This document shows, piece after piece, positions 49 through 49,953 of a DNA stretch of 49,953 bases. Origin of the DNA: Planctomycetia bacterium (lineage in GTDB: Bacteria; Planctomycetota; Phycisphaerae; Phycisphaerales; SM1A02); the NCBI GenBank assembly GCA_005790565.1, contig SXUJ01000003.1, positions 1 to 49,953 of the forward strand. The letters run 5' to 3'. Position 1 is the stretch's first letter, and the number at the start of each line of letters is the position of its first letter. The position numbers and the translations under genes are program-made. Under the pieces are notes generated by a model. It was not told the origin of the DNA. It searched no databases and saw nothing but the letters and a program-made list of their open reading frames with translations.

Positions 49-2031
49 CTAAGTCAGAAAGTCAAGCAGACTCATGTTCACTGCGCGCGATGCGCCGGCC
101 AGTCCAGCCTGCAGTTGCTGCTGGAGCGCCGCGAGTTGGGTCGCAGCGTCGGCGTAGTCAAGGTCTTGGATGCTCGCGCGAAGGCTCATGTCTTGGATCG
201 AAAGCTCGGTTTCTCTACTCGAGGCGTCAGACACGCGTCGAGATCGAACTCCGACATCGGCGCGCGCCTGAGCGGCGCGGGTGAGATCGGATTCGAGTCG
301 TTGGGTTGCAAAGGAGATGCCAGCCTCGTCATTGGCAAGGAGCGCGTCGCGGAGGGCCATGAGGTGCGCAAATGCACCGTCAACGGCAACGGTTGCCTGA
401 TCGGAACCCGCAAGAACCGCCGTGGACGTGTCTCCGGCGATGCCGAGCGCCTCGGCGGTGCCGGAGTTGTTGATCGACTCCACGTTCGTCTTGGCGCCAA
501 TAGTGTTGTCGATGATCGAGATGCCGTTGCCATCCGCATTGAGCCCGACAGCGAAGTCGGCGACGCTCACCGACGCCGCGCTTGCGGCAGCGAGCATCGA
601 CGAAATGACATCGCCGACCGCCGAACAGGTGCTAATGTCAACCTCGATCGTCCGCCCATCCTTGAGCGTCACGCGAATGTCGCGATCCGCTGCCGGATCA
701 GGCAGACCTGTGACCGGATCGACGGAGCCCGTCGACTGCGGCACACCGCGCCCTTCGCGGAAATCAGTCAATCTGGTTGAGAGGTTCAACGAGCGAATGC
801 CGAGTTCGGTCGCGATCGACCCACCGGCGACTTCTTCGATGGACATTCGTGCGCCAGAAAGTTCATTCTTGACATCGAGGCGCCGACCGTCCGCCGCGAT
901 TTCCACGCGAATGCCGATGTTCAGGCCAGCGACCGCGTTTTGGAATTCTTGCACGGTGTCGAACTGAGAAAGGTCGAGTTCACGCACCTGACCGCCGTTG
1001 CGCAGCCGAAGCGTGCCACGCGGGCTTGAGACGCCGCTCAACGAATCGAGCGTGGTCATGCCCGTCAGCTTTGGATCAATGTCAACACCTGCTGTCGTGG
1101 TGCCGCCGACGAAGGTCCCAGTGAGGCCGAGATCCCCTGCCGCGTTTGATTGATTCAGATCTCGGATCACGACCGTGTTTCCCGCACTCGGCGTGATCGT
1201 AAATCGATCTCCGGTCGCTCCGTCAATCGCGATCGTCGCGAGCGGGTCAACTGTCTGCATCGCGTTCTGCACCGCCACGCGAACATCTTCGATGCTGTCC
1301 GCTTCGGTGAGATCGACGGGCACGACGGTGCCGTTTACTTCAACTTCGATAGTGCCGGTTCGAATGCCGACCCCCTGCGCACCGCGAATCTCCGAGAGGC
1401 GCGTGGACGCTGTCATGGCTGGGTCGAGATCGCGATCGCCTTCCACCCGCGCGCTCAATGCGCCAAATGCCTGTTCGCCCGAGATCGTCAGACGGACATC
1501 CGATGCAAGACCGAGGTCCGCGCGCATCCCGAGGCCCTCGCCGCCATACCGAAGCCCGTTGAGGAGCGAACCGAATGGCTCTCGACCGTGCGCATCGCCA
1601 CCAAAGTAGTGAATGCCCCGCTGCTCACGATTCGCGATCTGCGAGAGCGATTGCACAAGTGAGGAGACAACGGCCGCTTGGTTCTGGCGAGTTGCCGCGT
1701 CGCTGCCCACGCCGATTTGCGAGAGACCGATGCCGCGCGCCTCTTGGAGAATGTCACTGAGGTCGCCAAGTGACGCATCGAGCGAGTTCAGGACGGACTC
1801 GGCTTGCCCAAGGTTTGTCCCGCGCTGCATTCGCCGCTCGATGAGATCATCGAGGACGGTGACGCTCGATGCGCCGATCGCATTTTCAGATGGTCGCGTG
1901 AACTGCATCCCCGAGGCAAGTTGCACTTGCACCGCGAGGAGCCCGCGATTGGATCGCTGAATGCCACTAAGCGCAATTCTTGACGCCAAGAGATTGGGAA
2001 CACGGGCAAGATTTGCAGGATTTGGACCCAT
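49..2031 (-). CDS. flgL: Flagellar hook-associated protein 3 (FlgL), enlarged
   Basis: FlgL forms the second hook-filament junction ring outside the cell, between FlgK and the flagellin filament. The N-terminal coiled-coil D0/D1 region (about residues 10-150) holds a flagellin-type stretch with ASGMQFTRPSENAIGAS and a following IHYFGG. The C-terminal helix ends in NMSLLDFLT, as in FlgL rather than flagellin. At 660 aa it is about twice the length of enterobacterial FlgL (about 317 aa). The extra length is a central Thr/Asp-rich region, probably surface-exposed D2/D3-like domains. The start is the ATG at 2031, 76 nt after kbl, behind a sigma-54-type promoter at 2065-2080. It lies 32 kb from flgK, which is usually adjacent. 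A divergent flagellin is possible but less likely. Confidence 0.85.
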   Translation of the reverse strand: MGPNPANLARVPNLLASRIALSGIQRSNRGLLAVQVQLASGMQFTRPSENAIGASSVTVLDDLIERRMQRGTNLGQAESVLNSLDASLGDLSDILQEARGIGLSQIGVGSDAATRQNQAAVVSSLVQSLSQIANREQRGIHYFGGDAHGREPFGSLLNGLRYGGEGLGMRADLGLASDVRLTISGEQAFGALSARVEGDRDLDPAMTASTRLSEIRGAQGVGIRTGTIEVEVNGTVVPVDLTEADSIEDVRVAVQNAMQTVDPLATIAIDGATGDRFTITPSAGNTVVIRDLNQSNAAGDLGLTGTFVGGTTTAGVDIDPKLTGMTTLDSLSGVSSPRGTLRLRNGGQVRELDLSQFDTVQEFQNAVAGLNIGIRVEIAADGRRLDVKNELSGARMSIEEVAGGSIATELGIRSLNLSTRLTDFREGRGVPQSTGSVDPVTGLPDPAADRDIRVTLKDGRTIEVDISTCSAVGDVISSMLAAASAASVSVADFAVGLNADGNGISIIDNTIGAKTNVESINNSGTAEALGIAGDTSTAVLAGSDQATVAVDGAFAHLMALRDALLANDEAGISFATQRLESDLTRAAQARADVGVRSRRVSDASSRETELSIQDMSLRASIQDLDYADAATQLAALQQQLQAGLAGASRAVNMSLLDFLT

Positions 2032-33541: not shown

Positions 33542-34738
33542 ATGACCTCGCTCAGTTCCGCCCCATCCCTCTCGACCTCGACCGACCCGCTGCAGTTGAT
33601 CGATGTCGACCACGTCCGATTCTTTGTCGGCAACGCGAAGCAGTCTGCCTACTACTACGCGAGCGCGTTTGGCTTCGAAGTCGCGCAGATCGCTGACCTC
33701 ACCACCGGCAGCCGTGAGAGCGCCTCGTACCTGCTCACGCAAGGCAATATTCGCATTCTGCTCGAAACATCACTCACGAAGGATGGACAAGCGTCGCGCG
33801 AAGCGAGTCTGTATGGCGACGGCGTGAAGGACATCGCGATGACGGTGTTTGATGCAGAAAAAGCGTGGAAGCAAGCGATCAAGAATGGCGGTGCGAGTGC
33901 GTACGAGCCGCGCGTTTACACCGATGCAACGGGCACCGTCACCATGGCGGGCATCCAGACTTACGGGCGCGCGATTCACTCGTTCGTTTCGCGAACGGGC
34001 GCGTATGCCCTTCCAGCACTGAAGCAAGGCGGACTCTTCGCGCCTGGATTCAAGAAGGTCGAAGGATTCGCGCTGAACGAGTACAACCGGAAGCATCCTT
34101 GCGGCCTGAAGTATGTGGATCACGCCGTCGGCAATGTCGAACTCGGCAAGATGAATCATTGGGTGAAGTGGTACGAAGAGGTGCTCGGCTTCGCCATGTT
34201 CAAGCACTTCGATGACAAAGACATCGGCACCGAGTATTCCGCGCTCATGTCCAAGGTCATGGCGAGCGGAAATCACCTCATCAAGATGCCGATCAACGAG
34301 CCCGCCGACGGCAAGAAAAAGAGCCAGATTCAAGAGTATCTCGACTGGCACAACAACACACCCGGCGTGCAGCATCTCGCGCTTCGAACCGATGACGAGC
34401 TTGCGTCGATCACCGAACTCCGTCGGCGTGGCGTCGACTTCTTGGCGATTCCCGACACTTACTATGAAGCCGTTTGGAAGCGCGTCGATGCCATGCTCAC
34501 GCAGCACGGTCATTCGATTGTGAAGGAAGACCATCAGCACGTGAAGGATCTCGGCATCCTTGTCGACGCCGACGACGAGGGATACCTCCTCCAACTCTTC
34601 ACGAAGCCACTTCAAGATCGTCCGACGCTCTTTTTCGAAATCATCTGTCGCCGTGGCTCGCAGAGCTTCGGGAAAGGCAACTTCAAGGCGCTCTTCGAGA
34701 GCCTCGAAATCGAACAAGAACGCCGAGGCAATCTTTAA
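33542..34738 (+). CDS. hppD: 4-hydroxyphenylpyruvate dioxygenase
   Basis: This Fe(II) dioxygenase converts 4-hydroxyphenylpyruvate to homogentisate in tyrosine degradation. It has two vicinal-oxygen-chelate halves. The iron ligands are predicted as H194 (YVDHAVGNVE), H278 (GVQHLALRT) and E366 (LFFEIICRRG). The C-terminal FGKGNFKALFESLE helix that gates the active site is intact. The 398-aa length is close to eukaryotic and planctomycete-type enzymes. No other homogentisate-pathway gene is in the window. It ends 16 nt from the convergent flgK. Confidence 0.94.
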   Translation: MTSLSSAPSLSTSTDPLQLIDVDHVRFFVGNAKQSAYYYASAFGFEVAQIADLTTGSRESASYLLTQGNIRILLETSLTKDGQASREASLYGDGVKDIAMTVFDAEKAWKQAIKNGGASAYEPRVYTDATGTVTMAGIQTYGRAIHSFVSRTGAYALPALKQGGLFAPGFKKVEGFALNEYNRKHPCGLKYVDHAVGNVELGKMNHWVKWYEEVLGFAMFKHFDDKDIGTEYSALMSKVMASGNHLIKMPINEPADGKKKSQIQEYLDWHNNTPGVQHLALRTDDELASITELRRRGVDFLAIPDTYYEAVWKRVDAMLTQHGHSIVKEDHQHVKDLGILVDADDEGYLLQLFTKPLQDRPTLFFEIICRRGSQSFGKGNFKALFESLEIEQERRGNL

Positions 34739-34754
34739 GCCCGCGCTCGGCGAT

Positions 34755-36449
34755 CTAGATCGCAAGCAGTGTCTTGAGCGTTTCGTCGATGACGGAGATG
34801 TACTTCGCCGCAGCTTGATATTGCCGCTGGAATTGCAAGAGGTTGATCGACTCTTCGTCAATCGAAACGCCGCTGAGCGCCTGCGCCTGCCCGTCGAGAC
34901 CTTCGCGAACCACGCGTGCGGTTTCTGCCTTGGTGTTCGAGGCCTGCGTTCGCACGGCCAACGCGGTGGTCGCGCCCTGCCAGTATCCGCGTAGCGTGCG
35001 TCCACCGAGTTCCGTCACCGACTTGTCTTGGAGCGCCGCGATTGCGAGCGCTGTTCCATTGGAACCATCGACATGACCTGCGCCCGCCGCGAGGAGTGCC
35101 GGATTTCCGACGATGGACTGGTTGACTTCGATCGACGCCGCGTCCGACCCACCAAAGAGCACATTGACGCCGAGCGAAGCCAGTGCGCCCGAGGTGTCAT
35201 TGGAAAAGTGCATCGTGTAGCCACTACTCGCGTCTAGCTGCAGCCGGCCATCACTCGTCACGCTCGCAGTCGCCGTTCCACTCGGAACCGCTGCGTTGAT
35301 TGCAGCCGCGAGATCGACCAGGCTCATCGTCTGCGGATCCACCGCGATGACGGCCGTGGTGAGCAGTCCCGTCTGCGCGTCGCGCATGCTGAGTTCGAAG
35401 GAACCGTTTCGGATGGCGAAAGGAATCTCGGCTGCATCGGCACCGAGATTTGCGCTCGGATCCGCGACGCTCTGCATCCCTCGGATCTGCGACCAACCAA
35501 TGCCGCCCTGCCCCTGTGAATGCACTCGATTCACCTGATATGCGAGTTGACCCGCGAGCGTGTCTAACTCCGCGATCGCTGGCTCCACAGTCTCCGCGCG
35601 CTGGCGGAAGAGTGCGCCGAGTTGACCTTCTTGCGGCGCGAGGAAGGACCCGTCATCGCGAACCCGCAGGGACAGGTCGACCGCACTACCCTGAGCGTCG
35701 GCGCGAAGCTCAAGTCCGCGCGATCCTCCCGCGAGGACGACCGGAATCGATCCCACGAGAATGTCGACGGATCCATTGGGCTGCTCCACGCTGTGGCAAT
35801 CGATGAATTGAGAGAGTTCATCAATCAACTGATCTCGTCGATCGCGGAGCGAATTCGCATCACTGCCCGATCCCTGTTCCGTGTTCACGATTTGCGAGTT
35901 GAGCGTGGCGATCTGATCAAGAATGCCGTTAGCCTGATTGACGGTCGCGTCAAGGGCACGGTCGATTTCCTCTCGAACCACGACATGCTCATTGCGAAGT
36001 TGCCGAATCGCCGTCGCCAATCCCGATGCCTGTTGCACGACAACGGTGCGCACCGCTTCGTCATTGGGATTGTTCGAAAGTTCACTGAAACTGTTGAAAA
36101 ACGCGCCAAGTCGGCTTGAGAGGTCCTGATTGGTGAGTTCGTTCCGGATCGTTTCGATGGAATTGAGAAAGCGCTGGTCGATCGCAGCGGAGTTCTCGTC
36201 GCTGATGGCAGAGCGGAGGCGCGCCTGCAACGCGGTGTCAACGGCGCGAGAGATTGCGGTCACACTCACGCCCGTTCCCACGAATCCAGCTCGCCCGATG
36301 TACTCCGGCCGTGCTGGCGAAATGCGCGCGATTTGCCGGTGATATCCCGGCGTCGAAGCGTTCGCGAGGTTGTTTCCCGCGATCTGCAACGCCGCTTGAC
36401 TTACCTGAATGGCGGAGTGACCGATGTTGAGCGCGCCGTTGATACTCAT
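34755..36449 (-). CDS. flgK: Flagellar hook-associated protein 1
   Basis: FlgK forms the first junction ring on the hook. The 564-aa product carries the rod/hook N-terminal motif IAGNNLANASTPGYHR and the FlgK helical region (residues 85-200, including FFNSFSELSNNPNDEAVRTV). The C-terminal helix SIDEESINLLQFQRQYQAAAKYISVIDETL is typical of the family. It overlaps no gene but follows flgN by about 30 nt and ends the flgI-flgJ-flgN-flgK operon. Confidence 0.95.
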   Translation of the reverse strand: MSINGALNIGHSAIQVSQAALQIAGNNLANASTPGYHRQIARISPARPEYIGRAGFVGTGVSVTAISRAVDTALQARLRSAISDENSAAIDQRFLNSIETIRNELTNQDLSSRLGAFFNSFSELSNNPNDEAVRTVVVQQASGLATAIRQLRNEHVVVREEIDRALDATVNQANGILDQIATLNSQIVNTEQGSGSDANSLRDRRDQLIDELSQFIDCHSVEQPNGSVDILVGSIPVVLAGGSRGLELRADAQGSAVDLSLRVRDDGSFLAPQEGQLGALFRQRAETVEPAIAELDTLAGQLAYQVNRVHSQGQGGIGWSQIRGMQSVADPSANLGADAAEIPFAIRNGSFELSMRDAQTGLLTTAVIAVDPQTMSLVDLAAAINAAVPSGTATASVTSDGRLQLDASSGYTMHFSNDTSGALASLGVNVLFGGSDAASIEVNQSIVGNPALLAAGAGHVDGSNGTALAIAALQDKSVTELGGRTLRGYWQGATTALAVRTQASNTKAETARVVREGLDGQAQALSGVSIDEESINLLQFQRQYQAAAKYISVIDETLKTLLAI

Positions 36450-36479
36450 ATTGCGTTCCTTGCCGCGAGCGCGGCCATT

Positions 36480-37007
36480 TCAACTGCGAAGGTCAATCGT
36501 CGAAGCGACAGTCGCACCAAGCGCGACGCGCCCGTGACGACCGTACACACCTGTTTGCGCGAGCGCGCCACGAACCGTTTGTAAGACACCGGCCATGTGC
36601 TGAGCGAGTCGTTCCGCAGCCGCTCGGAGAATCCCGCCTTCGCGGCGAGTCTCTTCGATGCGCTGCTTGAGCATTCCGCGCAATCCTTCCAGCCGCGCAC
36701 GGCTTCCTTCTGGAAGTGCGCTACTGATTTCGAGAATGCTCGCACCCTTGGCGAGGCCAAGTCGCGTCGCGAGTTCGACACCGAGTGCGGTCCGACGAGT
36801 ATCAAGCGCGTAGACTTCAGCGAGCGCTCGCTGCTCTTCAATCGCGAGTCGGCTGTAGCGCTCAAGGTCTGCGCCGCCCACCGCGTCCCTGCGCTGCTGC
36901 AGGAGTCGCTGGACGCCTCCATAGAGTTCATGCTGAGCGGCAAGCACATCGGCGAGTTGCTGCGCGAGTGCCTCCACATGTCGCATCGTCGATGGGGAAC
37001 TCGTCAT
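36480..37007 (-). CDS. flgN: FlgN-like flagellar export chaperone
   Basis: A 175-aa, almost entirely helical protein (for example LAQQLADVLAAQHELYGGVQ and GLRGMLKQRIEETRREGGIL) ending in a VYGRHGR segment. FlgN proteins keep FlgK and FlgL export-competent in the cytoplasm. Sequence identity in this family is low, so the call leans on size, helical character and its place immediately before flgK. Its ATG overlaps the flgJ-like stop by 4 nt. Confidence 0.75.
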   Translation of the reverse strand: MTSSPSTMRHVEALAQQLADVLAAQHELYGGVQRLLQQRRDAVGGADLERYSRLAIEEQRALAEVYALDTRRTALGVELATRLGLAKGASILEISSALPEGSRARLEGLRGMLKQRIEETRREGGILRAAAERLAQHMAGVLQTVRGALAQTGVYGRHGRVALGATVASTIDLRS

Positions 37008-37387
37008 CCGCGCGCCTCCAGCATCGGTTGCGTGGCGGGAGTCGCTTGCTGGCGAAAGGCTTTGGTGAGCAGCGAGCGCTGCGTCGCCTGCACGAGATCA
37101 AAGTTTTCACTGCGGGCGATTCGGTCGGAGAGTTCGCCGTCAAGAAGCGGACGAAATGCCTTTTCCGCACTTCCAGGTGCAAACGGTTTCATCATGTCCG
37201 AACTCGATCGAACCTGTGCGAGGATCGGTTTGATGAATGCGTCGGACACGAGCCGAACCGCCGCTTCGAACGCGAGCTCCTGTGGATTTCCGTCGCGCGC
37301 CGCCTTCGCAAGCCGCGCCGTCGGAGAGGTCAGGGCGAGATGCTGAGGAGCCGTGCCGCGAGGTTGCATTGCGAGCGAGTCACTCAT
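37004..37387 (-). CDS. flgJ: Rod-binding protein (FlgJ N-terminal domain only)
   Basis: The 127-aa protein matches the FlgJ rod-cap domain in outline: EAAVRLVSDAFIKPILAQVRSS, then a DGELSDRIARS segment (usual form D-x-x-x-x-x-LA) and a C-terminal helix. The muramidase domain of enterobacterial FlgJ is absent, as in many bacteria where a separate enzyme opens the peptidoglycan. It overlaps both flgI (4 nt) and flgN (4 nt), so translation is coupled through the operon. Confidence 0.75.
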   Translation of the reverse strand: MSDSLAMQPRGTAPQHLALTSPTARLAKAARDGNPQELAFEAAVRLVSDAFIKPILAQVRSSSDMMKPFAPGSAEKAFRPLLDGELSDRIARSENFDLVQATQRSLLTKAFRQQATPATQPMLEARG

Positions 37388-38508
37388 TGCTCAATGATCT
37401 CCGCCTTCATGGCGCCCTGCGTCTTGAGGCTCCTGAGGACCGCGACCTGTGTGCTGAATGGAACATCGAGCTCGATGAGGGCATCGAGCAACGCACGCAG
37501 CTTCATACTTGTTCGTCCGGCTTCGCTCGTGGCAATACCGGCCCACGCGATCGTGTCTGCCAAGGGCGCGTCCGCCGTGGGCTGCGGCTCTGGGCTAATG
37601 GTCGTGATACGAAGCGTGCCCGCCGTCACCGCCGATGGCCTAAACTCGACTCGATCGTCGATCGTGATGACTTCATTCGCTCGATCGATCACCACACGCG
37701 CGGGCGTACGCACGAGGTCGCCTGGCACGGCGAATGTCATGAGCCTAGCAAGAAACGCGTTGGCTTCCGCAAGCGCATTCTGGGGGATACGCACGAGAAT
37801 GGCCCCTTGGTCGATGACGCGCGCGCAATCGGAGTATCCAGAGAGAGAGAGTTCGTCGTTCACGAGATCCGCGAGGCTTGCCGCCGTGGCGTAGCCGGCG
37901 TACTGCGGCGCAATCAAGAGGGTGACCGTGTCGCCTTCAATCGGATTCTGAAGGACATCGCGGACCATTTGCGCGCCTCCGCGAATCACGCCGATGCGCG
38001 GATTGGAAGGATCGACTTCGATCGTCCCGCTCGCGACTGCGTAGGGCAGCCACGCAACACCAGCGCGGGGCTCGAAGGGGATCTTCACCGGACTCGCATG
38101 CAGACGACCACGGGAGAGGCTCGATGCCGAGCCAACCGCCGACACGCGCACATCGAATCGGTCACCACTTCGGGCACCCGTGGAAGGAATGTCTACCGTG
38201 ACGCTCACGAGCGCGGCGGACTTGATCTTCGAAAGGCTCTTCAAGTCGGAGCGAATATTGAGTTCCTTGCTGAGGAGTCCGGCGAGGCTTTGTGCAGCGG
38301 GCGACCCGTCCTTCATCGAATCGCCGGAATCCTCAAGACCCGTCACGAGTCCGATTCCCTCGAACTGGTTCGACTCAAGCCCGCGAAGGCGACAGTACTC
38401 CTGGAGTTCGCCAGCCTGAGCCGTGCGCGCAGAAAATGCGCCTACGAGAAGCGCGAAAAGGGCGAGTAAGGCAAGATTCGCAGTGAAACGGGCGAGCGTC
38501 ACGCTCAT
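37384..38508 (-). CDS. flgI: Flagellar P-ring protein
   Basis: FlgI forms the periplasmic P ring around the rod. The 374-aa product from ATG 38508 has a signal peptide (ANLALLALFALLVGAFSARTAQA). FlgI signatures include LRGLESNQFEGIGLVTGL, KSAALVSVTVDIPSTGARSG, FDVRVSAVGSASSL and the C-terminal LRALLDALIELDVP. The start is fixed by a perfect AGGAGGT 7 nt upstream (38516-38522). A sigma-54 promoter lies at 38543-38558. P and L rings imply a Gram-negative envelope. Confidence 0.95.
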   Translation of the reverse strand: MSVTLARFTANLALLALFALLVGAFSARTAQAGELQEYCRLRGLESNQFEGIGLVTGLEDSGDSMKDGSPAAQSLAGLLSKELNIRSDLKSLSKIKSAALVSVTVDIPSTGARSGDRFDVRVSAVGSASSLSRGRLHASPVKIPFEPRAGVAWLPYAVASGTIEVDPSNPRIGVIRGGAQMVRDVLQNPIEGDTVTLLIAPQYAGYATAASLADLVNDELSLSGYSDCARVIDQGAILVRIPQNALAEANAFLARLMTFAVPGDLVRTPARVVIDRANEVITIDDRVEFRPSAVTAGTLRITTISPEPQPTADAPLADTIAWAGIATSEAGRTSMKLRALLDALIELDVPFSTQVAVLRSLKTQGAMKAEIIEQ

Positions 38509-38542
38509 AAGAAGGACCTCCTGTCCATGGGAGCCAATCCCC

Positions 38543-38558
38543 TGCAATCGAAGTGCCA
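38543..38558 (-). promoter_or_regulatory. Sigma-54 (-24/-12) promoter of flgI-flgJ-flgN-flgK
   Basis: The minus strand reads TGGCAC, 5 nt, TTGCA, an exact match to the TGGCAC-N5-TTGCW consensus. It ends about 34 nt before the flgI ATG, leaving a short leader carrying AGGAGGT. Sigma-54 promoters need an NtrC-type activator, and one is encoded at 48.6 kb. Confidence 0.82.
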
Positions 38559-38604
38559 CGCGGAAGAGTTCTCGCGCCTGCGCGATCGAACCGATACGCA
38601 AGGG

Positions 38605-40875
38605 ATGCGACAGCCGCTTCTTGCCCTCCTCACATTCGTGGTCGTGTTCGTGGTTTGCCTCGTCGTTTTTTCCGGAGCCGACTACGCCGGGGGCTCATCG
38701 AGGACCGACGGCGTGTTCCGAAGCTGCTTGACAGACGCTCCGCTCGCCCTCCTATGGATCACCGGTGCGGGTGGGATTGGCTGGCTCCTCCGACGCGCAT
38801 GCGCCTCATGGGCGAGCGAACGGATCGGTGATTCTCCAACACGCGCGAATCCATTCGATCGACAGAACCTCCTCGATCAGATCGCGGTCGAACTTCCGCT
38901 GGGCATCTGCGGAATGCTGCTTCTGGACACCTGGCTTGGCCTGTGTGGAGCATTTGGGGGCTCCACGAAGCTCGTGGGTTGGGGCCTGCTCCTCGCGCCG
39001 TCGCTGGTTTGGATTCGCGCGCTTCGCAATGCCGCGCAGGACGGAAGCACACTTGGGCTCCGCGCGCTGATCGAGTCGCAGACGCGCGTGCAGGTGATCT
39101 CAATCTCCTTCGCCTTAGGGTTGCTCTTCGGCATCCTCGCAATCGCTGCCTCAAGTACGCCGCTCTGGCTCTGGTCGAGCGAGTTCGGAGGATACGACGC
39201 GCTCAGTTACCACCTTGAACTCCCCAAGCAATGGATGATCGTGGGAAGTGCGGGAGTTGTCGAAGGAAATGTTTACTCGCACCTCCCTTCGTTCGTCGAG
39301 CATGCATTCCTCCACTTGATGATCGTGCGTGGAGATCCTTGGCATGGTGCGCTGACCTGCCAGTGGCTCTCGAGCGTCTTCGCGCTTACGACCGCCTTCG
39401 TCGCGTGGCGCCTCGCTCGAACGCTTCTACCAACCGCGGAGCGCGGATTTTCTTTCCTCGCACCGATGCTCATCCTGACGCTTCCCTGGATGCTGGTGGT
39501 GGGAACGCTTGCGTACAATGACACGATTCCGGTGCTCCTGCTCGGCGCGGGTTGGCTCCTTGTTGCAAGAATCCCCGCGGACGATTCGGACGCACGGCGC
39601 TTCACGCGGCCGATCCTGTGCGCCGTCGCGTTTCTCGCGGCGGTCGCCTGCGGCGCGAAACCAACCGCGCTGCTCTTCACCGCCTTGCCACTTGCAACAC
39701 TCGTCCTCTTGCGACTGGGTTGGAAATCGGCGATCGAGCTTCCACTCTGCTGCGCGCTTGGCCTGCTCGTTCTCCTGCCGTGGATCCTGAAGAATTACGC
39801 CGAGACATCGAACCCCGTGTTTCCCTTCGCCACTTCGATCTTCGGCCTCGGTCATTGGACGCAGGAGCAAGCCGATCTGTTCTCGTCCGCGCACTCGACT
39901 CAGGCCGCGTGGAGTGATCGCGCCGTTGCATGGGGGCAGGAGTTCATCTATCACGGATTCGGGACCCGTCCGAGGGCAAACGAACCGTGGTACCCACAGT
40001 GGGGATTGCTTCCCGCTCTTGGACTTGTGTGCGCGGGTGCGTCCACGTACCGACGCGACGCCTCGCGCATCATTCGATTTGGCGCACTGAGTGTGCTGCT
40101 CGTCCAAACCATTGCATGGTTGCTCGCCACACACCTCAAGAGTCGATTCATGCTTCCTGCGGCAATGCCGCTAGCGATTGCGGTGACTACCGCGTGCGCT
40201 CCCGAACTGCTCAGATTCCGTTGGAAAACGCCAGCCGCCATCGGCTGCGTCTTGCTCGCCCTCTTCCCTCTCTCCGTGTTCCTCCGAGAACCGGCACGAG
40301 GCGGCGTCCGCGCGCCCGCCGCATTTGTCGACGGACTTTCGCAAGCGCATGGCGACGAAGCGCTCGCGGCGCATCGAGCGGCAATGTCGGATCAAGCGCG
40401 AGCCGAGACACTGCAACTCTTGCCATCATCGGTCGTCGTCGATGAGTTGTTCCCTCCCAATGCGCGCATCCTTGCGGTCGGGCTCGCGACTCCATTCCAT
40501 TTCCACCGGCCCATCGAATCAACGACTGTGTGGGATCGCGGCGCACTCGATGAGGTTGCGCAAGAAAACTTCGGACAACCCGAACGCTGGCGCGATGCGC
40601 TTTCCGCGCGAGGCTACACACACCTCCTCGTTCAACCGACCATGCTTGAGGTGTGGCGACAGAGTGGATGGCTCAATCCCGTTCTCGATCTCCCCTCGCT
40701 CGGGAAGTTCGTGCAAACGATCCGCCCCGTCATGCGATGCGCCGATGGCGTCATCATCTACCTCCTTGAAGCGCCGCCGCCACCCACACCGAGTGCACCG
40801 TCGGGCGCAACTCCCTCGGTTCCGCCTGCGCTTCTCACTCCGCTCGAGCCGCAGCCGGAACCGAAACCGGGGTAA
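38605..40875 (+). CDS. GT-C-type multi-pass membrane protein (glycosyltransferase 39-like)
   Basis: The 756-aa product has about 10-12 hydrophobic helices in residues 1-540 and a soluble C-terminal domain. The first large periplasmic loop carries GGYDALSYHLELPKQWM, with an Asp/His arrangement like the catalytic loop of dolichyl/undecaprenyl-phosphate-sugar transferases (ArnT/PMT family). Such enzymes transfer lipid-linked sugars outside the membrane. The tail is Pro-rich. ATG 38605 was chosen for its hydrophobic N-terminus, and an ATG at 38527 is in frame. The 3' end overlaps the convergent zinc-ribbon gene by 41 nt. Donor and acceptor are unknown. Confidence 0.7.
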   Translation: MRQPLLALLTFVVVFVVCLVVFSGADYAGGSSRTDGVFRSCLTDAPLALLWITGAGGIGWLLRRACASWASERIGDSPTRANPFDRQNLLDQIAVELPLGICGMLLLDTWLGLCGAFGGSTKLVGWGLLLAPSLVWIRALRNAAQDGSTLGLRALIESQTRVQVISISFALGLLFGILAIAASSTPLWLWSSEFGGYDALSYHLELPKQWMIVGSAGVVEGNVYSHLPSFVEHAFLHLMIVRGDPWHGALTCQWLSSVFALTTAFVAWRLARTLLPTAERGFSFLAPMLILTLPWMLVVGTLAYNDTIPVLLLGAGWLLVARIPADDSDARRFTRPILCAVAFLAAVACGAKPTALLFTALPLATLVLLRLGWKSAIELPLCCALGLLVLLPWILKNYAETSNPVFPFATSIFGLGHWTQEQADLFSSAHSTQAAWSDRAVAWGQEFIYHGFGTRPRANEPWYPQWGLLPALGLVCAGASTYRRDASRIIRFGALSVLLVQTIAWLLATHLKSRFMLPAAMPLAIAVTTACAPELLRFRWKTPAAIGCVLLALFPLSVFLREPARGGVRAPAAFVDGLSQAHGDEALAAHRAAMSDQARAETLQLLPSSVVVDELFPPNARILAVGLATPFHFHRPIESTTVWDRGALDEVAQENFGQPERWRDALSARGYTHLLVQPTMLEVWRQSGWLNPVLDLPSLGKFVQTIRPVMRCADGVIIYLLEAPPPPTPSAPSGATPSVPPALLTPLEPQPEPKPG

Positions 40876-45695: not shown

Positions 45696-46139
45696 ATGCC
45701 CCGAAGGGATCTGCATATCCGCTGTCGACCGCGTCGCGCAATCTCGCTCATCGAGACGCTCGTCGCAATGTTCGTGCTTTCGCTGGCAGGCGTGGCGGTT
45801 CTCAACCTTTTTGCGACCTCACACCAGAGTCGCAATGAGTCGAGCATTCGTCTCGCCGCCACTATGCGATCGGAAGAAGCTCTCTCGCGATTCGTTGGCG
45901 CGTCTCCGAGCGGGCGCAGAGACTTGCTCCGTGATGGCGAGTCACTCTCAAAGTTCGACTCGAACCTCCCCACGGGCAGCACCACCACCTTTTCGACGCA
46001 AGAGGAGACGCTCGCGCTCGGCGCCACGCGCGTCGAGATCCGCATCCTGCGAATTCGCGCGACCGTGCATGACGCCGATGGGCACACGCTCGCCACACTT
46101 GAGAGACTTGAACCGGTTGAAGAGAGGGGAACGCGATGA
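45696..46139 (+). CDS. GspI-like type II secretion/type IV pilus minor pseudopilin
   Basis: A 147-aa protein with a basic leader and a prepilin cleavage motif RRAISLIETLVAMFVLSL. The predicted processing site has Ala at -1 and Ile at +1. A beta-rich C-terminal domain follows. It is the first gene of a three-gene pseudopilin operon (I-J-K order). Minor pseudopilins of this set form the tip complex that primes pseudopilus assembly. The start ATG 45696 has GAGGAG 6 nt upstream. The stop overlaps the next start by 4 nt. Confidence 0.8.
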   Translation: MPRRDLHIRCRPRRAISLIETLVAMFVLSLAGVAVLNLFATSHQSRNESSIRLAATMRSEEALSRFVGASPSGRRDLLRDGESLSKFDSNLPTGSTTTFSTQEETLALGATRVEIRILRIRATVHDADGHTLATLERLEPVEERGTR

Positions 46140-46774
46140 CCGCCCCGCGATGCAATCGCCGCGGCTTCACGGTGGCGGAGCTCTTACTCTCGCTCGCCAT
46201 TCTCGTGTTCGTCGGCCTCGGCATCACTGGCGTGCTCGCCGCGACGGCGACCGCAATCGATGACCGCTCGAAGTTTGGGGATCCCGCAGTGCTTGCGGCG
46301 CTCGCGCGTACGCGAATCGATGCGGTGACGGGCGGTGCGCGCTGCGTGCTTGGGACGGAGGAATCCCCCACGCAGCGCACCCTTGTCCTCTGGCTCGACG
46401 ACGCGAGGCCAAGCGCCACCGCGCACGCGAGTGAACTTGGCTACCTTCGATTCGATCGGACGCGTGGCTCGCTTTGGCTCGATCTTCCCGACCCACTGCT
46501 GCGGAGTTCTCCCAGCGCGCTCGCGCGTCGAGATCCTGAACTCGACGCAGAAACGGGGTGGATGGGGTTCCGCGACGAGGAGGCCGCATCGGGCATGCTC
46601 CAGTCGGAGTTGCTCTACGAGGGACTTGCCGACTGCCGATTTGAACTCCCGCGCGACGCGCAGCGATCAGAGAGCTTTGCGATCCTTCTTGAACTACATC
46701 CGGACGCTGCGGCGAGCACGCGTGTGCTCCTGCTTCCCTTCGGCATTGAGGCGCATGAGGTACCTGTGCGATGA
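46136..46774 (+). CDS. GspJ-like minor pseudopilin
   Basis: The 212-aa product has a prepilin motif RRGFTVAELLLSLAILVFVG with Gly at -1 and the conserved Glu at +5. A beta-rich domain ending in VLLLPFGIEAHEVPVR follows. It is coupled to the gene before and after by 4-nt overlaps. Size and position match GspJ, though the family is too divergent to be certain. Confidence 0.78.
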   Translation: MTAPRCNRRGFTVAELLLSLAILVFVGLGITGVLAATATAIDDRSKFGDPAVLAALARTRIDAVTGGARCVLGTEESPTQRTLVLWLDDARPSATAHASELGYLRFDRTRGSLWLDLPDPLLRSSPSALARRDPELDAETGWMGFRDEEAASGMLQSELLYEGLADCRFELPRDAQRSESFAILLELHPDAAASTRVLLLPFGIEAHEVPVR

Positions 46775-48588
46775 GTCGAAGCCTGCACTCCATCACCCTT
46801 CGCCCATCGACTTCGGTGCGTGCGCGCCGCGGTGTCGCACTCGCCTTCGCGCTCATGGCGATTGGCCTCGCGTCGTTGATCGCGCTGTCCTATGCCAAGT
46901 CTCGCGATAGCACACTCAAAGCCGCCGATGAACTGCGCATCGCCGCACAGGCGCGCCTTGCCGCGAAGAATGGCATCGCACTCGCGACCGCCATGCTCGA
47001 CGCCGGGGTGATGCCATCACCTCGCGAGCAAGGCGTGCTCTTTGCGAGCGTACCCATCGGTGACGCACAGATGGACGCAACACTCTACGACCTTGAGACG
47101 AAACTTCCCGCATCCCAATTCACACGCGCATTCATGCTCGTCGTGGCAGGAATGAGCGGGAACATGCAGCAGGTCGCGACGGCCGTCGGACGCGTGCCCG
47201 CCCCCAATGCCTCGAGCTTGGCGGACGTGGATTTCTCTGAGTTTGCGATCTTTTCGACCACGACGATCGACATCGCTCCCGATGCCGCGCTCGCGCGTTG
47301 GAGCAACTCCCCCTTCGCGGCGCTGCATGAGCCACTCGCGGTTGCGACCACGGCGCTTGATCCAACGCAGGTCCGCATCGAACGCGATGCGGACGCGATC
47401 GACTTCGTCATCGGGCATGCGCGCCCACTTCCCACAAGTGCCGACGCGGCGCTCGTCTCGCTCGCCGATGGACGGCTCGCGATTCCCGACGCCATGACGC
47501 TGCCCGAACCACCAACGCCACCGACGCTGCCTGCGACTGCGGCGCTCGCTCTCGGAACTCCCTTCACGCTTGATGGGCTCGTCGAGTCGAGCGCACACGC
47601 GCCCGGGGACATTCGCGTTCCCGCTCGCGCCTCTGTCACCGTGCGCGGAGTCGTCACCATCGGCGCGGACGCTGACTTCAAGATCGAACGCGGCGCTCGT
47701 TTGACGGTCGAAGGTACGCTCGCGCTCGTCGTTGGCGATGACTTCATCCTCGAAGCTTCGGATGTGGAGGTTGCTCCTGGGGGAAGCCTTGTCATCTTCG
47801 TCGGTGGCGATGTGGAGATGGACAGCGCGTTCATAGGTCCGCTTCGCCAAGATTTCGACGAAGGACGGGATTCAAGCGGCCATGCGCAATGGGACGGCGG
47901 CGCCGAGCGCGCCGTGCTCTACTCCCTGCCGAAAGGAGCGAACAGAAGGAGCACAGCGGATGCACAATGGCGGCTCCGCGGCAACACCGTCGCGAAGGCA
48001 ACGCTCTATGCACCGAGTGCTGTCATCCGACTTGAAGGCACCTCTGCGCTCTATGGTCGCGCTGCGGGGCACAAGGTCGAATTGCTCACTGGCAGCGCAC
48101 TGTTCTATGACCCTGCGCTCGACGACCGACAAGGGTTCACCGCGTCTGCGAGTGGCGTCTATGACACCCGAGGTCGGGTGCACGCTGCGATCCGCGGACT
48201 CGCTTCTCTTTCTCCAGGAGATCTGTCACGACTCGCGAGCAATCTTGGTTCTCGCGTGCAAAGCGTCGCACGCAATCATCCCTTCCTTGAGCTTGCCATC
48301 GACACGCAGCGAAATGCCGAACAGCGCGCGGTCGAAACCAGTATCGCGTCGGCATTCGCGCGCGCGAGACACGCAAGCGAGCCGGAGCGAAATGGCGCGC
48401 GCCGCGGCGACCCCGAGGATGCGAGAGATGATGCGAGAGGTGATGCGAGAGGTGATGCGGCGAGTGACGAGTCGGAGATTGAGACGCGATCGCCGACTGC
48501 GGAGGCGCTGCTGCGGCGCATGACAACCCAGCAAGGTTCTTCCGTTCGACTGCTCACCGTCCAAGGAAGATCGGGCTCGGGCGACTGA
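46771..48588 (+). CDS. PilX/GspK-like pilus assembly protein with charged repeat tail
   Basis: A 605-aa protein with an N-terminal transmembrane helix (ARRGVALAFALMAIGLASLIAL), like GspK and PilX proteins, which lack a canonical +5 glutamate. From about residue 270 a repetitive beta-helix-like region (VPARASVTVRGVVTIGADAD to FVGGDVEMDSAFIG) resembles polymer-forming or right-handed beta-helix domains. Near the C-terminus an Arg/Asp/Gly/Ala-rich segment is encoded by 12-bp tandem repeats. It closes the I-J-K pseudopilin operon and would be a tip or adhesin-like component. Confidence 0.7.
   Translation: MSRSLHSITLRPSTSVRARRGVALAFALMAIGLASLIALSYAKSRDSTLKAADELRIAAQARLAAKNGIALATAMLDAGVMPSPREQGVLFASVPIGDAQMDATLYDLETKLPASQFTRAFMLVVAGMSGNMQQVATAVGRVPAPNASSLADVDFSEFAIFSTTTIDIAPDAALARWSNSPFAALHEPLAVATTALDPTQVRIERDADAIDFVIGHARPLPTSADAALVSLADGRLAIPDAMTLPEPPTPPTLPATAALALGTPFTLDGLVESSAHAPGDIRVPARASVTVRGVVTIGADADFKIERGARLTVEGTLALVVGDDFILEASDVEVAPGGSLVIFVGGDVEMDSAFIGPLRQDFDEGRDSSGHAQWDGGAERAVLYSLPKGANRRSTADAQWRLRGNTVAKATLYAPSAVIRLEGTSALYGRAAGHKVELLTGSALFYDPALDDRQGFTASASGVYDTRGRVHAAIRGLASLSPGDLSRLASNLGSRVQSVARNHPFLELAIDTQRNAEQRAVETSIASAFARARHASEPERNGARRGDPEDARDDARGDARGDAASDESEIETRSPTAEALLRRMTTQQGSSVRLLTVQGRSGSGD
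48418..48459 (+). repeat. 12-bp tandem repeat inside the PilX-like gene
   Basis: Three and a half copies of GATGCGAGAGGT (first copy with one change) encode D-A-R-G units. Twelve bp preserves the frame, so copy number could vary without disrupting the gene. Confidence 0.85.
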
Positions 48589-48642: not shown

Positions 48643-49953
48643 TCAGCGCAGGCCGTATTCCTTGAGTTTGCGATAGAGCGTGCGCTCACCAATACCGAGC
48701 ATCTGTGCGGTCAATTCGCGGTTGCCGCCCGTCATCGCGAGCGTCTGTCGGATCGCTTCCTTTTCGAGCTTGTCAAGACCAACGCCTGCGAGCGTGCGCG
48801 TGGAGGGCAACTCGGAGTCGCTCTCGCTCGAGCGAATCTCCGCCGGAAAATCGCGGAGATCAATCGCGTCGCCTTGGCACATCACACTCAAACGATGGAT
48901 GAGATTGAAGAGTTCGCGCACATTGCCGGGCCAGTCGTACGCCACGAGGCGCAGCATCGCAGGCTGCGTGACATCGAGCCGAGGCCGTCCAATCTCCGCG
49001 CAGTACTTCATGACGGCATGCTGCACGAGTAACGGAATGTCATCCCTTCGATCACGCAGCGGCGGAACATGAATCTCTGCTCCCTTGAGTCGGAAGTACA
49101 GATCCTCGCGGAACCTCCCCTCTTGGACGAGCACTTTGAGATCTCGATTCGTAGCGGACACCAGCCGTACGTCGACCTTTTTCGCGTCGTTGGCACCGAG
49201 GCGCACCACATCGCCTGTCTCGAGAACGCGCAGTAACTTTGGCTGCATGGTGAGCGGCATGTCACCGATTTCATCGAGAAAAACACTGCCCTTGTCGGCG
49301 TACTCAAAGACGCCTTCTCGATCGCGATCCGCGCCGGTGAATGCGCCACGGACATGCCCGAACAACTGATCTTCAAGCAGACTCTCCGCCTGACCGGCCG
49401 CGTTAAAAGTCACCAATCGCCTCGCCGCGCGCCGCGACAAACGATGAATTGCGCTCGCGACGAGTTCCTTCCCCGTACCGCTTTCGCCCGTCACGAGAAC
49501 AGGGATGTTCGAAGGCGCGATCTGCCGCACCGTCTGAATCACGGCTCGCATCAAGGCACTTTCACCAATGATGCCCTCGAATCCAAAGCTCGCGCTCACT
49601 TGTCCTTTGAGCGATGCGTTCTGGGTTCGCAACGAGACGGTTTCCGCTGCGCGATGGACGAGGTTTCGCAGCACCACGAGATCGAGCGGCTTCTCAATGA
49701 AGTCATACGCGCCGCCCTGCAACGCCCTCTTTGCGGTGGGCACATCGCCGTGCGCGGTCACCATGATTGTCTCGGCGTCGGGCTGATGTTCCTTCGCGAG
49801 GGCGAGTACTCGGAGCCCGGAGTCCTCTGCCTCCATGACAAGGTCTGTCACGATCACATCGAAGTGACCATGCAGCAGTTCATTCTTCGCTTCCTTGAGG
49901 GAATGCACGATCGTGCAAACATGACCAGGACGACGCAGCGACTCTGCCATCGC
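48643..49953 (-). CDS. NtrC-type sigma-54-dependent response regulator (N-terminus outside the window)
   Basis: The visible 435+ aa lack roughly the first 10-20 residues. Residue numbers here count from the first Met in view. The receiver shows phospho-acceptor D36 (VIVTDLVME) and K87 (FIEKPLD). The AAA+ domain has Walker A GESGTGKE, the sigma-54 contact loop GAFTGA (200-205) and Walker B VFLDEIGD. SATNRDL and DWPGNVRELFNLIHR follow. A Fis-type HTH closes the protein (GNRELTAQMLGIGERTLYRKL). It should activate sigma-54 promoters on phosphorylation. Two flagellar sigma-54 promoters are in this window, so FlrC/FlgR-type flagellar control is plausible, though nitrogen or other control is not excluded. 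Confidence 0.92.
   Translation of the reverse strand, partial: AMAESLRRPGHVCTIVHSLKEAKNELLHGHFDVIVTDLVMEAEDSGLRVLALAKEHQPDAETIMVTAHGDVPTAKRALQGGAYDFIEKPLDLVVLRNLVHRAAETVSLRTQNASLKGQVSASFGFEGIIGESALMRAVIQTVRQIAPSNIPVLVTGESGTGKELVASAIHRLSRRAARRLVTFNAAGQAESLLEDQLFGHVRGAFTGADRDREGVFEYADKGSVFLDEIGDMPLTMQPKLLRVLETGDVVRLGANDAKKVDVRLVSATNRDLKVLVQEGRFREDLYFRLKGAEIHVPPLRDRRDDIPLLVQHAVMKYCAEIGRPRLDVTQPAMLRLVAYDWPGNVRELFNLIHRLSVMCQGDAIDLRDFPAEIRSSESDSELPSTRTLAGVGLDKLEKEAIRQTLAMTGGNRELTAQMLGIGERTLYRKLKEYGLR

Follow-up and report, generated by a model that had tools for sequence, protein, structure and literature searches.

In the genome of a planctomycete of the order Phycisphaerales, a motif that looks like a sigma-54 promoter stands directly in front of flgI, the gene of the flagellar P-ring protein. 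The locus raises the question of whether this motif is a working promoter, which protein would activate it, and whether the genes behind it are under any further control. Flagellar tiers under sigma-54 are textbook knowledge in other bacteria. The window, by which we mean the whole stretch of 49,953 nucleotides that was analysed (contig SXUJ01000003.1 of assembly GCA_005790565.1, positions 1 to 49,953), contains one single exact match to TGGCACN5TTGCW, namely TGGCACttcgaTTGCA at 38558-38543 on the minus strand. It is made up of a -24 box TGGCAC (38558-38553), the spacer TTCGA and a -12 box TTGCA (38547-38543), and the GG and GC of the two boxes are 10 nt apart, in exact agreement with the consensus TGGCAC-N5-TTGCW. 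This is where the initial annotation had placed a sigma-54 promoter, and the Shine-Dalgarno sequence and flgI start codon that it described behind the site are also present, as AGGAGG and as an ATG at 38508, 34 nt downstream. Counting 12 nt past the C of the -12 box, we predict the transcription start at 38532 on the minus strand (38531 had been expected), which would leave a leader of about 24 nt.

A gap of 96 nt, which contains the site, separates flgI from its divergent neighbour, an ORF on the plus strand. This ORF was first listed as 38527-40875, and reading it from the ATG at 38527 would make it overlap the sigma-54 site. The conserved in-frame start is however the ATG at 38605, and the congeners have insertions and deletions in the stretch that separates the two genes, for which reasons we take the site as intergenic and the ORF as 38605-40875 (756 aa, start placed by conservation, no Pfam family). 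On the minus strand, flgI (37384-38508; PF02119, E 4e-46) is followed by a putative flgJ for a rod-binding protein (37004-37387, 127 aa; PF10135, Rod-binding, E 0.029, below the cut-off), a putative flgN (36446-36979, 177 aa, named by position only and matching no flagellar family) and flgK for hook-associated protein 1 (34755-36449; PF22638 E 1.3e-51, PF06429 and PF00460). In the proposed operon flgI-flgJ-flgN-flgK the identities of flgI and flgK are thus firm by Pfam, but the names of the two small genes between them are putative and based on position. An mRNA starting near 38532 would cover flgI, both small genes and flgK. In most relatives PF02119 also matches, over about 220 residues, a second protein of mostly 600-1100 aa (e.g. 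G003:C21:20695 and G002:C19:28469); this long protein occurs in relatives without flagella as well and is absent from the genome of the window.

The motif by itself shows no genome-wide enrichment. When up to two mismatches are allowed, the window has 21 matches against 22.4 in shuffled sequence, and with up to one mismatch the 2.66-Mb genome has 80, against 93 for the reversed pattern. One could thus argue that the motif is a chance match and that flgI is transcribed from another promoter, since the pattern is genome-wide no commoner than its reversed control. What speaks against chance is the position of the matches at gene starts, together with the footprint in the congeners and the recurrence throughout the family described below, and we regard this explanation as very improbable. 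Half of the eight exact matches in the genome are found upstream of flagellar genes, these being flgI, fliE, flgE (contig C74) and fliD (contig C143), and the other four lie before or within three further genes (YbjN-like, elongation-factor-G-like and EF-hand) and a long ORF of opposite orientation. The initial annotation had suggested a scan for the same motif before other flagellar genes. We inspected 200 nt upstream of 32 starts, belonging to flagellar genes or to genes adjacent to them on the contigs that were read; fliM, fliN, fliQ, motAB, flgA and flgH were left out of the list, the flgB start was placed 3 nt too far in, and the remaining starts are those of the ORF caller. A site with at most one mismatch precedes 8 of the 32, and the reversed pattern none (0/32), when about 0.1 sites would be expected from the genome-wide frequency (Poisson 2e-13). 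The fliD contig had been found through the motif, and a stricter count, from which it and flgI itself are removed, still gives 6 of 29 starts (Poisson 7e-10). A control with random windows (486/20000 at one mismatch or fewer) proved too generous, as the windows came mostly from loci that had been fetched for motif matches, and the genome-wide count was used instead.

The eight starts with a site are those of flgI, flgL, flgC, fliE, fliK, flgE, the flgF/G operon on contig C36, and fliD. No site with one mismatch or fewer was found in the 200 nt before fliO, fliP, fliR, flhB, flhA and flhF, nor before the genes for the activator and kinase on C74 or the remaining starts of the 32, several of which follow closely upon the preceding gene. 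Such a division, in which genes of the rod, ring, hook, cap and junction have a site and export genes have none, looks like the pattern expected of a middle flagellar tier. From these positions we conclude that the promoter of flgI is very probably a real one and that about eight of its kind exist in the genome, which would serve the rod, ring, hook, hook-cap and hook-filament-junction genes.

The site before flgL, TGGCACaggacTcGCA, lies on the minus strand at 2080-2065, has one mismatch and ends 33 nt before the gene. In the genus flgL stands at the contig edge, about 33 kb from flgK, with this sigma-54-like site of its own. The gene (49-2031, minus strand, 660 aa) encodes hook-associated protein 3 (TIGR02550 E 3.8e-31, below the cut-off; PF00700 E 5.5e-6), and in 15 of the 16 relatives a single alignment covers most of the protein and shows 41-55% identity to the product of the gene directly after flgK. 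By this identity and by TIGR02550, a reading of 49-2031 as flagellin was rejected in favour of flgL. A sigma-28 box before flgL was also considered, and its best candidate, with 5 mismatches in 16 positions, is not convincing.

Conservation of the promoter is clearest in the genus. In an alignment of four genomes, TGGCA and TTGCA are invariant while the spacer and flanks vary, so that both boxes are present in 3/3 congeners, and the next block of identity after them is the ribosome-binding site. Among 47 distinct flgI loci, the plain pattern with one mismatch at most occurs within 450 nt upstream in 18, and the reversed pattern in none. We also scored the upstream regions of the 47 loci with a matrix trained only on the eight sites of the own genome. 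As controls we took 94 scores, obtained with the reversed matrix and on the other strand, and set the threshold at their 95th percentile. Before flgI it is exceeded in 18 of 21 members of the family that do not belong to the genus, and in only 5 of 23 loci from other families of the order; only 4 of the 44 scores from outside the genus are higher than the top control score. At several loci outside the family flgI follows closely behind the preceding gene, and we read it there as part of a longer operon. Strict sites before flgB (1/16 relatives), flgC (4/16) and fliE (2/16), genus mates included, are mostly absent outside the genus and were not retained as a family feature.

A sigma-54 promoter would lose its meaning in a genome without rpoN, which the initial annotation had named as a refuting observation. 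The gene is present on contig C92, with the AID, CBD and DBD domains and the RpoN box ARRTVVKYREQL. The gene flgE is divided between two contigs, with its N-terminal part at the beginning of C74 and its C-terminal part at the end of C92, and rpoN therefore appears to be located near the flagellar cluster. Both rpoN and the sites before other flagellar genes support the claim that the flgI operon has a sigma-54 promoter and belongs to a flagellar tier under this sigma factor. Matches to rpoN were found in 60 of 61 genomes, the sole exception being 72% complete, and matches to fliG in 51 of 61. A joint loss of rpoN and flagella is ruled out, as relatives without fliG have retained rpoN, and by the same observation sigma-54 does not serve flagella only in the non-flagellated relatives.

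Only two strong sigma-54 activators are encoded in the genome. The first, at 48643-49950 on the minus strand of the window (receiver-AAA-Fis; PF00158 E 3.4e-65), is the NtrC-type regulator that had initially been suggested as activator of the flgI promoter. The second is on C74 and has a receiver, an AAA domain with GAFTGA and a Fis-type helix-turn-helix; the receiver can be seen in the sequence and is covered by NCBIfam response-regulator models. Its gene lies between a histidine kinase gene and flgB. The distribution of the two among relatives differs. Orthologues of the 48.6-kb protein, at 65-76% identity, are present in all 14 non-genus genomes searched, including 8/8 family members that we call non-flagellated, meaning that they have no fliG match and only the long FlgI-like paralogue. 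Its conserved role would therefore not be flagellar, and it is probably not the flagellar activator. The C74 type occurs in 8/8 flagellated relatives and not convincingly in the 8 non-flagellated ones, six of which have exactly one strong activator; the other two, G029 and G036, have two. A quick tree groups the C74 type into a clade of nine, made up of eight flagellated genomes and G007, whose FliG is divergent and which lacks a normal flgI, and the second activator of the non-flagellated G029 falls at the base of this clade on a very long branch, a placement that is unsure. When positions were compared by eye, at least 33 of the 48 genomes with a clear fliG proved to have an activator no more than 6 kb away from it.

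It could still be that the promoter is real and that the 48.6-kb regulator activates it, since the genome has only one other strong activator and the distance of this one from flgI is about 8-13 kb, both in the window and in the flagellated G001, G003, G018 and G035. Its retention in every family member without fliG, and the fact that the other activator adjoins flgB-flgC-fliE and tracks the flagellum, make this quite unlikely, and the earlier assignment is not borne out. The most likely flagellar activator is instead the C74 protein, a two-component regulator that would be encoded beside its own kinase upstream of flgB; we favour it because it follows the flagellum among relatives and sits with the kinase and flgB. 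Its scores against the NCBIfam models FlgR (298.8) and FlbD (339.4) are far below the cut-off of 750 in both cases, and by these cut-offs it is a member of neither family. The 48.6-kb gene adjoins a gene with a weak prepilin match and a DUF7305 gene (46136-48588, plus strand), and in view of these neighbours it may regulate type IV pili.

Three relatives, G006, G007 and G024, have a divergent FliG-like protein with an activator a few kb away; G006, like G007, has no normal flgI, and the flgI of G024 is divergent. Perhaps they possess a reduced or repurposed flagellar machine. A FliA/WhiG-like sigma factor (G000:C48:9370-10038, locus L149) adjoins flhA-flhF-flhG, and homologues of it above the cut-off are found also in several relatives without flagella.

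The second invariant block of the congener alignment is GGACAGGAGGTCC, at 38526-38514 on the minus strand, which begins about 6 nt after the predicted mRNA start. It reads GGAC-AGGAG-GTCC, a possible hairpin with the Shine-Dalgarno sequence in its loop and a candidate CsrA-type site. The identical sequence is found in 17 of 25 flgI leaders of the family, window included (in this set L076 duplicates L080, and L052 is without a usable start), and the leaders of G012 and G024 have one extra loop base, giving ATGGAG or AAGGAG. Of all 202 fetched loci 21 hold the element, and all 21 carry flgI. The sequence AGGAGGT is fully complementary to the usual anti-Shine-Dalgarno sequence, and it could be argued that the 13-mer is merely a very strong Shine-Dalgarno sequence. 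Six further bases (GGAC and CC) are however equally conserved, despite an identity of only 28-47% between the FlgI proteins of other genera and that of the window, and at eight other gene starts the best shared 13-mer occurs in at most 5 of 11-21 genomes. We therefore hold this simpler explanation to be unlikely.

A hairpin with GGA in the loop is possible in 19 of 25 leaders of flgI and in 12 of 16 of flagellin. Among control leaders it is possible in 5 of 114; these were taken from seven genes (flgK, flgB, flgC, fliE, fliF, fliG and an activator, the last being the nearest activator in the labelled loci and not always the orthologue of that in the window). The binding consensus of CsrA/RsmA is [A/U]CANGGANG[U/A], where the GGA is exposed in the loop of a hairpin at the Shine-Dalgarno sequence, and the flgI loop, mostly AGGAG, is one base short of the form ANGGAN. 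In its strict form the consensus is matched by 2/25 flgI leaders, by 12/16 flagellin leaders and by 0/114 controls, and with the N made optional by 20/25 flgI leaders and 1/114 controls. A five-base loop of CsrA type is reportedly supported by Lapouge 2013, as the title of that work has it. Loop hairpins before possible starts are not in excess in what was read of the own genome (9 vs 11 in reversed sequence), and two of the nine stand before flagellar operons; in the flgI regions of the family, the three genus loci included, there are 31 vs 5 in reversed sequence. The own flgF/G operon also starts with an AGGAG loop, closed by GGCA/TGCC.

The leader folding energy of the four congeners is no better than that of shuffled sequences (z 0.25 to 0.93), and the idea that the hairpin is a thermodynamic outlier was rejected on these values; in one congener, G003, the best fold differs from the GGAC-AGGAG-GUCC hairpin. 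The 401 nt around the leader match no Rfam family, and among family leaders no compensatory changes are found in the flgI stem, so that the element could also be recognised as an operator or as plain sequence. In Vibrio, FlrC is known to have activator sites downstream of the transcription start, and the 13-mer might likewise be a DNA operator of the flagellar activator, a palindrome GGAC-N5-GTCC downstream of the start. The inverted repeat without compensatory changes and the Vibrio precedent agree with such an operator. By inspection the element is, on the other hand, not seen upstream of the other sigma-54 flagellar genes of the own genome, and the flagellin leaders keep the design and a like loop with other stems (AATC/GATT, GAGC/GCTC), which fits recognition of an RNA loop. 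An operator thus seems rather unlikely, and we infer that translation is controlled through the leader in the manner of CsrA, in addition to the control by sigma-54. The mRNA would begin with its leader of some 24 nt, the ribosome-binding site would be presented in the loop of the potential hairpin GGAC-AGGAG-GUCC, and a CsrA-type protein would bind this hairpin and add control at the level of translation.

In the family outside the genus, the gene for such a protein is close by. At 16/16 loci csrA follows flgK at a distance of 2.2-3.0 kb, flgL standing between the two, and one copy was confirmed by Pfam. The ORF directly before csrA is fliW at 3 of 4 loci checked; the fourth, at L218, has no family match, and the choice of ORF there may be wrong. 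At most loci the gene behind csrA begins like a flagellin gene, which Pfam confirms in one case. Among the 12 of 16 relatives with the flagellin leader hairpin, the sequence is exactly AATC-A(A/C)GGAG-GATT in 7. Hairpins with the Shine-Dalgarno sequence in the loop were seen before flagellin at L205, L206, L209-L211, L216 and L222, and, with differing stems, before a few csrA genes (L204, L209, L222). Between flgL and csrA, a second copy of GGACAGGAGGTCC precedes an ORF in G023 (L218, minus strand), and L204 has a CGTC-AGGAG-GACG hairpin at a like place.

The genus is arranged differently. Where other genera have flgL and csrA after flgK, it has a 327-aa gene without a clear family (33770-34753, minus strand). 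No csrA was found in the part of the 2.66-Mb own genome that was searched, about 0.9 Mb, and none stands next to flgI in the genus; our guess is that the own csrA lies beyond the contig edge behind flgL. In the other genera the presence of csrA, often with fliW, and of flagellin in the same block means that the block would hold its own translational feedback. We hypothesize, at about even chances, that two locks act on the P-ring gene in this family, one being a promoter of sigma-54 and an FlrC-like activator and the other an almost invariant hairpin, with the Shine-Dalgarno sequence in its loop, that is read by CsrA, and that the gene block of the other genera has translational feedback of its own. 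The broader explanation, in which the flgI operon has a sigma-54 promoter, the C74 protein as activator and a leader hairpin with CsrA-type control, we consider likely as a whole.

A middle flagellar tier of sigma-54 with a kinase and an NtrC-family regulator is well known from Vibrio (FlrBC), Pseudomonas (FleSR), Campylobacter (FlgSR) and Caulobacter (FlbD). The present case is like these in that rpoN is present, that the gene of the receiver-AAA-Fis activator adjoins one for a histidine kinase, that -24/-12 sites precede genes of the rod, ring, hook and cap, and that a FliA-like sigma factor adjoins flhA-flhF-flhG. It differs in that the organism is a planctomycete, that the activator is encoded upstream of flgB and that the FlgR and FlbD models match it far below their cut-offs. 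A study of Pirellula, cited by Carrera-Reyna 2025, has reportedly treated this subject for the phylum.

In Planctomycetia, motility genes and flagellar components are reported to be enriched for predicted sigma-54 promoters (Carrera-Reyna 2025, PMC12316311), in a paragraph that deals with the P-ring group COG1261 as well; control of flagella by sigma-54 is thus already known, also in that class. The leader element is not part of the passages of that paper considered here, in which Phycisphaerae are named once, for chaperone genes. From the freshwater Phycisphaerae family Nemodlikiaceae, FlrB-FlrC and flagella have been mentioned (Andrei 2019, PMC6461901), which is likewise a flagellar two-component pair; the pair is tied to surface affinity, and promoters are not discussed in the sections concerned. 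Such control had initially been called little described in Phycisphaerae, and this is a fair statement as far as these parts of the two papers go, with the class named once in PMC12316311 and FlrB-FlrC mentioned in PMC6461901. Neither the regulon nor the leader element is described in the titles and abstract openings that we found on flagellar sigma-54 or csrA in planctomycetes and Phycisphaerae.

The closest parallel to the leader comes from Campylobacter jejuni, where, in the parts of the study considered, flgI is RpoN-dependent and has GGA motifs near its Shine-Dalgarno sequence, and CsrA binds the leader (Dugar 2016, PMC4894983). The flagellin leader of that species has ANGGA in hairpin loops, and CsrA is antagonised by FliW. 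The flgI leader is, according to the same passages, a weak CsrA target with a Kd above 350 nM, and the FlgI level was unchanged on deletion of csrA and fell on deletion of fliW (PMC4894983). In comparison with C. jejuni, the flgI element is here near-invariant across a family, with a loop of 5 nt in most members.

These results extend the sigma-54 middle flagellar tier to a family of Phycisphaerae, with a list of genes and a candidate for the activator, and they correct the activator first proposed at 48.6 kb. It is the leader rather than the promoter that is the part worth following, as it offers a short target on which control of P-ring synthesis at the level of translation can be tested. 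If our explanation is true, the combination of sigma-54 and CsrA known from Campylobacter would be present in a distant phylum as well.
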